NCBI RefSeq assembly: GCF_003967015.1
Contig: NZ_AP017560.1
Coordinates: 1,116,001-1,180,000 of the forward strand
Source of the DNA: Pseudanabaena sp. ABRG5-3
GTDB lineage: Bacteria > Cyanobacteriota > Cyanobacteriia > Pseudanabaenales > Pseudanabaenaceae
DNA length: 64,000 nucleotides
Reading direction: 5' to 3'
Under the pieces are notes generated by a model, which was given only the letters and a program-made list of their open reading frames with translations, had not been told where the DNA came from and did not search any database. The position numbers and the translations under genes were made by a program. Shown one piece after another: positions 17,246-22,614 of this stretch. How positions within the stretch are numbered: the first letter of the stretch is position 1; each line of letters opens with the position of its first letter.

Positions 17246-18277
17246 TTAGGGAATCAAGGGAATATTTTGGCTCCGCGTAAATTGTTCATAGGCTGAGATC
17301 AAGGTTAGGCTATATAAACTTTGAAATTTGTAGTCTTTGTAAGCATCGGGCACTTTCGTAAATTTCTCTAGAACTTGCTCCTTAGTCAAATTTTGCGCCT
17401 TCCATTGAAATGCTAAATTTTCTAACCAACTAAAGTAAGTTTGCTGATCTTTGATGCCAGTCACGTCCGTAACCGCTCCTTCCCCCGGTACAACTTTAGC
17501 ATTGGGGAAATTCGTAATTAAGCGAGCTAAGCTAGCTTGCCACTTACGCAGATCGCTGTCCCCAGTGTAGGGAATTCGTTTATGAAAAACCATATCCCCA
17601 GTAAATAAAACCTTAGCATCAGGTACATAAATAACCAAATCAGTACCAGAGGCATGACCCTCTACAGGTTCAATTTTGACTTGGCGATCGCCTAACCAAA
17701 GATCGAGGGTGACTTGACCATTGAGGACTACATTAGGAGGTGTAAAGCCCTTTGTCCCATCTTTACCCATGCGAATATATTCACGGATTGCCCCGCGTCC
17801 AAGCACAGGAATCCCTAACTTGATAAAAGTAGCATTGCCCCCAGTTCGCGCAAAATGATAATGCGTATTTAAGACATACTTAATCGGTTTATCTGTGAGT
17901 GATTTCACTGTTGTGATCATCAATTCAGCCAATTGTGGCGAATGAAAAGGATCAATTACCAAAACACTATCACTACCAATGACAATGCCCCCATTACAAA
18001 TTGCCACTGTCGGTAGTACAGGTGGAATGTCCCCACTGGCGACTAAAGCGTAAACTCCTTGCCCCACCTTTTGTAGTTGCAAGCCCGCATCTTGCAGGTT
18101 AATTTTTTTAATTATTGGCGATGGCTTATTTTTTTGTAACTGATTTTGCGGTTGAGCTTGGATCTTAGTTTGAGACGCAGCAGGCAATCCAACCAAAACA
18201 GATGTGAATGTGGCGGTAGCGATCGCAGTTAAACCGAATACTATGGCAGCGTATTTGCGGTTGAAGTTCTTTAGCAT
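17246..18277 (-). CDS. Secreted MBL-fold protein with degraded metal site
   Basis: The 343-residue protein has a signal peptide (about 10-35) and a metallo-beta-lactamase fold, and is clearly a paralogue of its upstream neighbour. The zinc motif normally reads HxHxDH; here it is HYHFAR at 139-144, so the Asp and third His became Ala143 and Arg144. The later ligand His of VPGHG is Glu266 (VPGEG). His139, His141, His208 and Asp228 remain. The frame is open and the rest is well conserved, so it is probably a translated pseudoenzyme or a protein with altered metal binding. A recent decay cannot be excluded. Confidence 0.85.
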   Translation of the reverse strand: MLKNFNRKYAAIVFGLTAIATATFTSVLVGLPAASQTKIQAQPQNQLQKNKPSPIIKKINLQDAGLQLQKVGQGVYALVASGDIPPVLPTVAICNGGIVIGSDSVLVIDPFHSPQLAELMITTVKSLTDKPIKYVLNTHYHFARTGGNATFIKLGIPVLGRGAIREYIRMGKDGTKGFTPPNVVLNGQVTLDLWLGDRQVKIEPVEGHASGTDLVIYVPDAKVLFTGDMVFHKRIPYTGDSDLRKWQASLARLITNFPNAKVVPGEGAVTDVTGIKDQQTYFSWLENLAFQWKAQNLTKEQVLEKFTKVPDAYKDYKFQSLYSLTLISAYEQFTRSQNIPLIP

Positions 18278-18353: not shown

Positions 18354-19376
18354 TTAAGGAATCAAGGGAATAGTTTTGCTACGAGTAAATTGCTCATAGG
18401 CGGACTCTAAATTCATAGGATAGATCCCTTTAAATTTGTAGTCTTTGTAAGCATCAGGGACTCTGGCAAATTTTTCTAGTACTTGCTCCTTGGTTAAAAT
18501 CTGAGCTTTCCATTCCAAAGCTGTACGCTCTAACCAACTGAAATAAGCCTGCTGAGCTTGTAAGCCAGTCACATCAGTGACATCGCCATGTCCGGGGACA
18601 ACCTTAGCCTCAGGGAAAGTGGCAATCAAGCGGTACAAGCTACCTTGCCATTGCCGAATATCGCTATCGCCAGTGTAGGGAATCCGCTTATTGAAAACCA
18701 TATCACCTGTGAATAGGACTTTAGCATCGGGAACATAGGCAACCAGATCAGTGCCAGCCGAATGCCCATCGACACGCTCAATACGGACTTGGCGATCGCC
18801 TAACCAAATATCAGTTTGGCTATTGACAATTACCGTCGGTGGAGTAACGCCATTAGTATTATTTTTCCCGCTTTGAATATATTCACGAATTACACCACGT
18901 CCGATCACAGGAATATTTTGCTTTACAAAGGCAACGTTACCGCCTGTATGGTCAAAGTGATAATGGGTATTCAAAACATATTTGATTGGCTTATCTGTCA
19001 GTGATTTTACTGTCGCAATTAACAGTTCCGCTAGATCTGAGGTTTGAAATGGGTCAATCACCAACACACTCTCGCTACCGATGACAATCCCGCCATTAGC
19101 GATCGCGACCGCAGGACTCGCAGGTGGAAAATCAGTACTAGCAATCAGTGCATATACACCTTGAGCAACCTCTTGCAACTGTAAACCTGCATTTTGCAAG
19201 CTAATAGTTTGAAGGGGAGCTTCCGTAGGTTTTTGGGCTTGCTTTTGAACTTGATTTTGTGACTGATTCTGCGCTACCACAGGCTCCCAACTCTGCCCAA
19301 TTGTCATTGACATGATGGCAGCAATCGCCGCAAGGGCAAAGGCAAGAAGGTGATTAAGCTTAAGCTTTTTCAGCAT
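18354..19376 (-). CDS. Secreted MBL-fold metallo-hydrolase
   Basis: The 340-residue protein has a signal peptide (about 8-28, then SWEPVVAQ) and a complete metallo-beta-lactamase motif set: HYHFDH at 138-143, His205, Asp225 in FTGDMVF and His263 in VPGHG. It resembles the periplasmic hydrolases called quinoprotein-relay-system or SoxH-like zinc hydrolases. The substrate is unknown. It is the upstream, intact member of a tandem pair; the two share most of their length, including IPYTGDSD and RVPDAYKDYKF near the C terminus. Confidence 0.88.
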   Translation of the reverse strand: MLKKLKLNHLLAFALAAIAAIMSMTIGQSWEPVVAQNQSQNQVQKQAQKPTEAPLQTISLQNAGLQLQEVAQGVYALIASTDFPPASPAVAIANGGIVIGSESVLVIDPFQTSDLAELLIATVKSLTDKPIKYVLNTHYHFDHTGGNVAFVKQNIPVIGRGVIREYIQSGKNNTNGVTPPTVIVNSQTDIWLGDRQVRIERVDGHSAGTDLVAYVPDAKVLFTGDMVFNKRIPYTGDSDIRQWQGSLYRLIATFPEAKVVPGHGDVTDVTGLQAQQAYFSWLERTALEWKAQILTKEQVLEKFARVPDAYKDYKFKGIYPMNLESAYEQFTRSKTIPLIP

Positions 19377-20287: not shown

Positions 20288-20518
20288 ATGTCGTTTCTTC
20301 TCTCTGCCCCAATACTTGCCGCAATTGTGTATGCCGCGATCGCAGGTACATATTTACTTGTACTGCCTCTGATCATTTTGTTTTATTTCAAGGCCCGTTG
20401 GTACAAAACAGGTTCTCTTGAAAGAGTATTCATTTGTTTCTTAGCCTTTTTCTTCTTCCCCGGTTTGTTATTACTATCACCCTTCTTTAACTTCCGCCCC
20501 GAAGCACGCACTATTTAA
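20288..20518 (+). CDS. ndhL: NAD(P)H-quinone oxidoreductase subunit L
   Basis: NdhL is a small membrane subunit of the cyanobacterial NDH-1 complex, used in respiration, cyclic electron flow and CO2 uptake. The 76-residue product has two membrane segments. Its signature FKARWYKTGSLERVFICFLA and FFFFPGLLLLSPFFNFRPEA matches the family. The frame is open to 20201, but that part reads through a palindrome, so I chose the ATG at 20288. A DUF3007 gene follows 60 bp later, as in other cyanobacteria. Confidence 0.93.
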   Translation: MSFLLSAPILAAIVYAAIAGTYLLVLPLIILFYFKARWYKTGSLERVFICFLAFFFFPGLLLLSPFFNFRPEARTI

Positions 20519-20578
20519 AAATGCCTTTAAATCAGCGCTTAGCGCTGATTTAAATAAATATTTGAGAGATTGAAGATT

Positions 20579-20908
20579 ATGCGCCGCATTGATGCCATAG
20601 CAATTATGGTTGCTTTTTTTGGATTTGGTGGAGTTGCTTTTTGGGCGTTTCGCGCCTATGGTTTCGATACTACTAATGCAGGCGTTTGGAGTCAGGTGGT
20701 TCTCGTAGGTGTATTACTGGCTTGGATTTCCACCTATGTGTTTCGAGCCGTTACTCAAACCATGACCTACAATCAGCAACTTGACGATTACAAAAAGGCA
20801 GTTTTGGCAAAGCAACTTGAAGAAATGTCACCTGAAGATCGCGAAAGGTTGCTTGCTGAGGTAGAGGCAGAAAAGAAACTAACTCAAAATGCCGTCAAAG
20901 ATGAATGA
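20579..20908 (+). CDS. DUF3007 family membrane protein
   Basis: This 109-residue protein has two N-terminal membrane segments (about 6-25 and 36-54), then a charged tail: YNQQLDDYKKAVLAKQLEEM and SPEDRERLLAEVEAEKK. That is the DUF3007 pattern. It sits directly after ndhL, a conserved cyanobacterial arrangement, and may serve NDH-1 or thylakoid membranes; its role is not established. I chose ATG 20579 over a TTG nine bases upstream. Its stop overlaps the next start by four bases (ATGA). A 13-bp hairpin with a TTA loop precedes it. Confidence 0.85.
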   Translation: MRRIDAIAIMVAFFGFGGVAFWAFRAYGFDTTNAGVWSQVVLVGVLLAWISTYVFRAVTQTMTYNQQLDDYKKAVLAKQLEEMSPEDRERLLAEVEAEKKLTQNAVKDE

Positions 20909-22581
20909 ATCAGCGATCGCCCTATTATTCTCTATTTCATCCTAAGCCGCTCGCGAGGCGGGTTAGTTCCTTTGGCTTTCCGAGAGACTTGGGCGATCGC
21001 TTTCAAATTATTCAACGATGGTTATGCTTTGCCAATGATGGCGAACCGTCGAATCTAATTGCCGAAGCGCAGTTCTTACACGATATTTTTGTTGATATTT
21101 TGGGGTATAAATCCCCCTTCGAGACGGCGGGGGGAGCTTGGGAGCTAGAGCTACATCCCAAGCCTGCCGTAGGTTTTTTTACAGAAACTTCAATTAATGT
21201 CATTGCTGAAATAATTGTCAATGCTGCTGAAGAGGGGGCAATCGTTAAGCCTGAGCCGCAGCATGAGACGACGGAATGGATGATCGTGCTGGACTATCGT
21301 GAGATCTGCCTTTACCATCGCGATGTTTCAGGACTGTTTTGCCAAAGATTTGCGTGGGAATCGCTAGCGGATTTAGAACAACTTAAAGCTTTTTATTTTT
21401 TACTATCACGGCGGACACTTTTGCGGGGCATAGCTAACAGTGAGGAGCGATCGCGTACCACCCAACTGTTAGAGGAGTCGCACCAACTGGAAGCCGAAGT
21501 TCTCAAAAATTTTCATAGTCACTATTACAAAATTCGCAGTCAGCTAATCAAAGATTTTCGCTATCGGTTGCTCTTGCTTGCTCAAGCCCCCAATACAGGC
21601 AATTTGGAAACTAATCTGCGAATTAATACCGAAGATGTCATTGCGATCGCGATTTATCAAGCCCAGAAATTATTGAACCGCATCTTGTTTGTGGCTTGTT
21701 GTGAAGATCGCGGTTTACTGCCTGCACACCTTATTAAAGATGCTTATGAATTTATCAACCCCTATGTAGAGCAACATATTTGGGAAAATTACAAAGCGAT
21801 TTTTCGTTGGGTACAAAAGGGAAATCCCAATTATCACAGTCCGATTGAGGCTCATCCATCGGGTTTATTTGAGAGCGATCGCATTTTAGATCATGCGCTG
21901 TTTGTGGGAGATGAGCTATGTCGTCAAATTAAAGAGATTGCGCGGTTTGACTTTGGGGAAGACATTACGCGCCATATTTTGACCGCACTTTTTGACGATT
22001 CCATTAAAGAATTGTCTCAATATCGCAAAGATCTGGGCAATCTCAGCAAAAGACGTACTCCCAAGTTACCTTGCAAAGCGATTCTCCACAGTGAGTCCGT
22101 TATTCGCACTTTGCAGCAGCATTTGTCTCTAGGAAATAAAGATGACGACGGTGATCGCCAGTTTGCTCAAGATACCTTGGCATATTGCAAGGCGTACCAA
22201 GAGCGTTTGCTCAATATCAAAATTGTCCATCCCAAATGCGGTGCAGGTGTATTTCTGACTACGGCGCTAGAGTTTTTGATTTCTGAACATGAGCGTATCC
22301 ATCATTTATTAACTAAATTCTCTCCCCATCCTGAAGTCCTTGTGCATCGGAATCCCACGGAGGTAATCGCGCATATTTTGCAGCATAATCTCTTTGGTTG
22401 TGATGTGGTCGAGGAATCCATCGAAATCACCCGTCTGTCCCTATGTTTGCGATCGCTCGAAATCAATCCCGCCATTCCCAATTTTGAGCAGAATATTCAA
22501 TTGGGTGAGTTGGCAAATTGTGATTTTGGTGAGGAGTTTCGGCAAGCAAGCGATCGCGATGAGATCGTAATTCTCAAATAA
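20905..22581 (+). CDS. Truncated Eco57I/type IIG-like methylase protein with altered SAM motif
   Basis: This intact 558-residue frame resembles the front of Eco57I/PglX-type restriction-methylases. It has a helical region (LLNRILFVACCEDRGLLPAH, then NYKAIFRWVQKGNPN and GLF), followed by what should be the SAM-binding motif. Instead of DPACGSG it reads HPKCGAG at 442-448. Motif II-like NLFGCDVVEESIEITRLSLC is clear. The protein then ends at 558, just before the catalytic NPPY motif of the family. It therefore probably cannot methylate DNA. The start overlaps the DUF3007 stop (ATGA), so it is translated with the ndhL group. It may be a decayed gene, a repurposed DNA-binding protein or the result of an old 3' deletion. 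Confidence 0.65.
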   Translation: MNQRSPYYSLFHPKPLARRVSSFGFPRDLGDRFQIIQRWLCFANDGEPSNLIAEAQFLHDIFVDILGYKSPFETAGGAWELELHPKPAVGFFTETSINVIAEIIVNAAEEGAIVKPEPQHETTEWMIVLDYREICLYHRDVSGLFCQRFAWESLADLEQLKAFYFLLSRRTLLRGIANSEERSRTTQLLEESHQLEAEVLKNFHSHYYKIRSQLIKDFRYRLLLLAQAPNTGNLETNLRINTEDVIAIAIYQAQKLLNRILFVACCEDRGLLPAHLIKDAYEFINPYVEQHIWENYKAIFRWVQKGNPNYHSPIEAHPSGLFESDRILDHALFVGDELCRQIKEIARFDFGEDITRHILTALFDDSIKELSQYRKDLGNLSKRRTPKLPCKAILHSESVIRTLQQHLSLGNKDDDGDRQFAQDTLAYCKAYQERLLNIKIVHPKCGAGVFLTTALEFLISEHERIHHLLTKFSPHPEVLVHRNPTEVIAHILQHNLFGCDVVEESIEITRLSLCLRSLEINPAIPNFEQNIQLGELANCDFGEEFRQASDRDEIVILK

Positions 22582-22614
22582 GGAAAGGACGGCACTTCGT
22601 GCCGCCCTTTCCTT
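22580..22614 (+). terminator. Terminator hairpin after the methylase-like gene
   Basis: A 16-bp stem with one mismatch and a TTC loop starts in the stop codon; the arm ends CCTTTCCTTTT. It carries the recurring CGGCAC...GTGCCG tip. Confidence 0.7.

Follow-up and report, generated by a model that had tools for sequence, protein, structure and literature searches.

Why would a cyanobacterium keep the N-terminal half of a dead restriction enzyme in a gene group headed by ndhL, the gene for subunit L of NDH-1? The question is raised by an open reading frame (ORF) in a 64,000-nucleotide stretch of the Pseudanabaena sp. ABRG5-3 genome, referred to here as the window. The ORF lies on the plus strand (20905-22581), starts with ATG and encodes a protein of 558 amino acids, for which a protein search returned five named records, all from Pseudanabaena, the nearest being 92% identical. 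Two genes precede it on the same strand, ndhL (20288-20518, +; PF10716, E = 5.6e-25), which is the first of the gene group, and a DUF3007 gene (20579-20908, +; PF11460, E = 1.2e-37), so that Pfam agrees with the identities given to both in an earlier reading of the sequence alone (the original prediction). That prediction also placed the start codon of the ORF within the stop of the DUF3007 gene, and the overlapping ATGA can indeed be read at 20905-20908 (+). Downstream, a terminator-like hairpin (22590-22604, +), whose stem starts 8 nt after the stop codon, is a possible end of the transcription unit, in a region with 8 terminator-like sites where shuffling predicts 2.3; hisF (PF00977 according to Pfam) lies beyond it.

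Two further features of the neighbourhood can be mentioned. First, a perfect inverted repeat of 13 bp, with a loop of 3 nt, sits between ndhL and the DUF3007 gene (20526-20554). Since its core pattern is found at one place in the genome, it could be an attenuator or a processing hairpin that acts locally. Second, two paralogous minus-strand ORFs in tandem (17246-18277 and 18354-19376) resemble metallo-beta-lactamase genes, judging from a motif. The metal site of the former looks altered, because HYHFARTGG replaces the HYHFDHTGG of its paralogue.

By profile and motif comparison, the 558-residue protein is a derivative of the N-terminal half of a type IIG restriction-modification enzyme, comprising a nuclease domain, a helical connector and the start of a methylase, without the catalytic motifs. 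The helical domain and the methylase start had been recognized in the original prediction as being of the Eco57I type, and this homology is not due to chance. With hhalign, the profile of the protein aligned over 505 columns to that of eight cyanobacterial enzymes of 1098-1136 aa, among them one from another Pseudanabaena genome (L040), with an E-value of 7.5e-90, and the PADLOC type IIG model PDLC03609 matched residues 251-535 (E = 5.6e-27). Three full-length relatives matched one type IIG restriction-modification model in PADLOC with E-values of 4e-135 to 3e-145, and Eco57I and TaqI_C domains were found in all four full-length relatives scanned against Pfam. The pseudoenzyme itself scored below the Pfam cut-offs (22.2 bits vs 27 for MmeI_Mtase and 14.8 vs 25.3 for Eco57I). 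Searching the PDB by sequence gave no match, whether with the protein itself (E up to 1) or with a profile built on it (E up to 0.1); one full-length relative matched TaqI- and BseCI-type methylases as well as BrxX. An AlphaFold model, computed from an alignment of the window protein and five Pseudanabaena sequences, had a mean pLDDT of 33, too low for use. The highest hydropathy mean over 19 residues was 1.36, with no stretch hinting at a membrane span.

The domain order of the parent can be followed along the protein. The first ~180 residues (20905-21444, +) align with the nuclease domain of the enzymes, a point absent from the original prediction, and their catalytic residues are lost; in the degenerate core at residues 86-107 (21160-21225, +), the alignment sets PAVGFF...AEIIVN against ADGALGFF...IELKG. 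Then follow the helical connector domain (residues 251-355; 21655-21969, +), the place of motif X (residues 383-392; 22051-22080, +), where GVYYTP is aligned with the now basic RRTPKLPCKA, and a remnant of the methylase fold (residues 431-558; 22195-22578, +) that reaches the strand before NPPY. Within this remnant, SAM motif I is degenerate, with HPKCGAG at residues 442-448 (22228-22248, +), and the last residues encoded, DEIVILK, fall on the strand that reads FDVVIGNPPY in the enzymes, both as originally predicted.

To how many copies these losses extend was read from one alignment of 15 pseudoenzyme copies and 20 enzymes. The nuclease residues D, K and Q are present in 20/20 enzymes and in 0/15 copies; the nuclease E is likewise found in 0/15 copies in the register of the alignment, with E102, two columns off, being invariant in the 15 copies. 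The YTP of motif X and the NPPY of motif IV are found in all 20 enzymes vs none of the copies, and the first-position aspartate of motif I in 20/20 vs 1/15 (G028). The second glycine of motif I and the aspartate of motif II are retained in all 15 copies. The C-terminal target-recognition domain is not in the ORF, and the frame has a similar end across genera (...IVILK, ...LLILK, ...LIMLS, ...LVYLD and, in G029, ...LLLIY). A frameshifted C-terminus close by was considered and rejected: searching 49 stretches, some of them overlapping fetches of one locus, for the C-terminal half gave a best E-value of 0.013 and no C-terminal remnant, and the positive control was recovered. The G028 orthologue (L031:5076-7673) is alone among the 15 aligned copies in having DPKCGSG as motif I, and its frame reaches 865 codons because of long low-complexity inserts, which lie between its domains.

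The truncated form is not confined to the window. In the genus, the frame is open in 24 of 26 genomes and spans 548-582 codons (548-576 aa from ATG), so that a recent truncation limited to the window copy is rejected. The two other genomes of the genus (82% and 76% complete), like G032 (74% complete), have neither the gene nor ndhL and DUF3007; the locus is therefore probably missing from these three assemblies. Family-wide, an open frame is found in 33/38 genomes, a count that includes the contig-end-cut G034 and G031, the short frames of g2 (455-471 codons), G060 (420 codons) and the long frame of G028. In G060, the main frame ends before the methylase remnant, part of which sits in another open frame. 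In genus g6, the orthologue of G059 (L074:898-1870) is broken into two frames and lies away from ndhL, which reflects either ongoing loss or an assembly error, and the gene was not found in G030 (77% complete) though ndhL-DUF3007 is present. Since it is broken or not found there while ndhL-DUF3007 remains, the gene may be dispensable in g6.

Outside the family, a sample of 388 genomes of the class yielded no short version. Strong matches (E of 1e-80 or better) occurred in 27 of the 350 sampled cyanobacterial genomes beyond the family, and 26 of them are open frames of at least 784 codons; the exception, G221, has 514 codons and a further piece on a second contig. This search scored no more than three candidates in each genome and may therefore have overlooked weak additional copies. 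The enzyme also matched 40 plasmid records from other bacteria and archaea, and viral contigs, scanned once with the profile of the pseudoenzyme and once with that of the enzymes, yielded no confirmed relative. Patchiness and plasmid matches are as expected for mobile defence genes. Within the ABRG5-3 genome, a search with the single sequence gave one match only, and a profile search added a second, weak one at residues 419-517 of a 986-codon frame; on these searches, a copy of the live enzyme within the same genome was rejected. One genome of the genus, G024, encodes the dead protein together with a full-length type IIG enzyme of the same family (1133 aa; L040:5688-9089).

The position behind ndhL-DUF3007 is shared by 31 loci (24 of the genus, together with G029, G028, G026, G033, G058, G060 and G031), where the original prediction had asked whether full-length active methylases might stand instead; none of the 31 encodes a full-length methylase, G031 being cut by a contig end. 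A 4-nt overlap of an ATG, TTG or GTG start with the DUF3007 stop is available in 30/31, the remaining one, G029, having a 59-nt gap. For g2 and G031 the overlap is a possibility and not an established fact, because the start in g2 would be TTG and G031 has other starts. As far as gene order and start codons can tell, the gene is placed for the co-translation with ndhL-DUF3007 that had been predicted. However, coupling is not obligatory, given the gap in G029 and the arrangement in g3 (G027 and G034), where the gene lies apart from ndhL and DUF3007, which remain together, and where its frame is open in G027 (530 aa from ATG). In both g3 genomes, the detached gene is divergent from an ORF that by eye resembles a response regulator (L036:3903-4604 and L035:1219-1944).

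In other cyanobacteria, trpA follows DUF3007 in 22/27 loci (Pfam confirmed trpA on one of them; 9 further outside-family genomes with weaker DUF3007 matches are not part of the 27). To our knowledge, trpA has no functional tie to ndhL. Since the slot elsewhere holds such a gene, gene order is weak evidence for a shared pathway. Neither ndhL nor DUF3007 was found within a few kilobases of the enzyme genes (0/20 enzyme loci).

Then, we compared the constraint on the protein with that on its neighbours. In 24 genomes of the genus, pooled pN/pS was 0.109 for the pseudoenzyme, 0.111 for DUF3007 and 0.097 for ndhL, as calculated from those pairs, 37 out of 276, whose dS fell between 0.02 and 1.2 (239 pairs were too far or too close). 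Within the genus, residues 1-180 evolve slowest among the compared regions (0.078), followed by the helical domain (0.110) and the methylase remnant (0.139). Across genera, identity among six deep representatives is highest in the helical region 246-355 (mean 0.55), with 0.45-0.48 for the N-terminus, 0.30-0.35 for the methylase remnant and 0.27 for segment 356-410. In addition, 27 positions are fixed in at least 14/15 copies and present in at most 4/20 enzymes; they are 27 rather than the 28 listed because the start methionine is an artefact of enzyme trimming, and one of them, P6, sits at the trimmed edge. Judged from these alignments and codon comparisons, the protein is a pseudoenzyme that has lost its catalytic motifs and is held by purifying selection.

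Identity to the window copy also tracks that of NadE (Spearman 0.80, n = 25; 0.74 for the 23 of the genus). Other family genomes stand outside this comparison because their matches are in pieces or partial. With an open frame in 33 of the 38 family genomes and a broken one in one more, these data indicate stable vertical inheritance in the clade, as seen in identities rather than by comparing trees. In a maximum-likelihood tree, taken as unrooted, a single branch with 100/100 support and a length of 2.0 parts the 15 copies (10 of the 24 of the genus and 5 others, without G058, G060, G031, G034 and G059) from the 20 enzymes; the order of genera is unsure because several long branches meet.

The ordinary expectation for a dead restriction enzyme is decay. 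Here, it is kept in most genomes of the family and constrained as tightly as the adjoining NDH-1 subunit gene. This retention suggests that the dead enzyme has a new job. The original prediction had supposed that an open frame without catalytic motifs was repurposed, and motif loss, retention, linkage and strong selection together support this strongly. Its two examples of a new function, DNA binding and anti-restriction, are not supported, as set out in the following paragraphs. We consider it very likely that the protein works without catalysis and, with less confidence, probable that what it binds is a protein rather than a nucleic acid; taken jointly, a pseudoenzyme acting through a protein partner is the reading that we favour over the others, with moderate confidence.

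Binding of nucleic acid is the alternative that survives best, although we hold it to be unlikely. The dead enzyme would have kept a non-specific hold on DNA or RNA, for example as a repressor of the operon or as a tether between nucleoid and thylakoid. Its ancestor was a DNA-binding enzyme, and residues 356-410 are basic in the 15 copies, with a net charge of +1 to +9 vs -1 to +4 in the 20 enzymes. However, this segment is the poorly conserved one across genera, and two changes speak against DNA binding: the half that recognizes the target is missing, and residues 1-120, derived from the nuclease, have turned acidic (-2 to -7 vs -2 to +5 in the enzymes). Only this N-terminal change is telling, since the whole protein (-2 to -20) and the matching half of the enzymes (-5 to -19) are both acidic.

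The protein could also still be a catalyst of another kind, such as a methyltransferase that uses SAM to modify protein or RNA. The invariant motif I glycine and motif II aspartate, as well as the DPKCGSG of G028, would fit such an activity, but the protein has neither motif X nor motif IV and lacks the second half of the methylase, and the methylase remnant is weakly conserved across genera and partly displaced to another frame in G060, which makes catalysis rather improbable. Slightly less probable still is an anti-restriction or dominant-negative role, in which the protein would pair with active type IIG enzymes and block them. Domains of the parent enzyme are still present, plasmids carry such enzymes, and other Eco57I-type methylases in genus genomes, which match at the methylase start only, might be targets. 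Pairing with its own kind is nevertheless disfavoured, because a full-length relative matching along its length occurs in 1/26 genus genomes (G024), with a fragment in G001. This role does not account for a gene that is steadily kept in genomes lacking such a partner, and the large divergence from the enzymes also speaks against it. Finally, a decaying pseudogene riding on the ndhL transcript, as the split frame of G059 and the shortened frame of G060 might suggest, is very improbable in view of the newly fixed residues, the open frames across the family, the retention in g3 despite separation from ndhL, and a pN/pS equal to that of the neighbours, which contradicts decay within the genus.

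We thus return to a non-enzymatic partner of the ndhL-DUF3007 group, which is favoured because no other clue to function is as good as the coupling to DUF3007, even though operon position by itself is weak evidence. DUF3007 corresponds to CPLD38 in Chlamydomonas (PMC8448359), which has been implicated in cytochrome b6f accumulation by a mechanism described as undefined (PMC9279372), and NdhL is reported to contribute to the formation of the NDH-1 plastoquinone channel (PMC12038448). On this basis, the protein might act in electron-transport complexes, though we would put such a role below even chances. More tentative still is a reading in which a selfish restriction-modification enzyme, stripped of its activities, would have been turned into a subunit or biogenesis factor, specific to this lineage, of a thylakoid electron-transport complex (NDH-1 or cytochrome b6f), with translational coupling keeping its synthesis in step with that of CPLD38/DUF3007. 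In the explanation that we favour, a type IIG gene of a patchy kind that also occurs on plasmids would have settled behind ndhL-DUF3007 in the ancestor of the family, in the slot where most other sampled cyanobacteria have trpA. It has lost the motifs for cleavage and for SAM binding as well as the whole part that begins with NPPY, in an order that we can only infer, with the N-terminal and helical domains meanwhile under strong selection. Today, the product is most likely a soluble, non-catalytic protein-binding partner, co-made with DUF3007/CPLD38 and NdhL through coupled translation, and would help in the assembly, stability or regulation of NDH-1 or cytochrome b6f in the thylakoid. If this role is true, it would offer a testable handle on CPLD38 and illustrate how a defence gene can turn into one for photosynthesis.

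Among known systems, eukaryotic pseudo-methyltransferases of the METTL14 type have a dead methylase fold that serves as a protein scaffold. The protein described here differs from them in its incomplete methylase fold, its bacterial restriction-enzyme parent and the lack of a known active partner. PglX/BrxX of BREX and DrmMI of DISARM are distant relatives, mainly through the methylase start (NF033455, E = 8.3e-6; PADLOC DrmMI, E = 3.4e-6), but with 23.6 bits the pseudoenzyme is far from the NCBIfam cut-off of 900 for BREX PglX, and it stops before NPPY. Mobile-element proteins recruited by their hosts have been characterized by lost autonomy, purifying selection and vertical inheritance, in a work that treats restriction-modification as a variety of mobile element and whose passages on restriction-modification do not describe a dead type IIG enzyme (PMC8987985). 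No comparable case turned up in a keyword search of a further review (PMC12707154), and among the titles and abstract openings listed, with subscription papers largely outside the search, none described the present gene. With type IIG enzymes of the Eco57I/TaqI_C kind (PADLOC PDLC03609), the pseudoenzyme shares common descent along residues 1-535 and the same domain order; unlike them, it is without the nuclease residues, motif X, motif IV, the rest of the methylase and the target-recognition domain. The enzymes are ~1100-1200 aa long and patchy in their distribution, whereas the 558-aa pseudoenzyme is near-constant in one family, beside ndhL in 31 loci.
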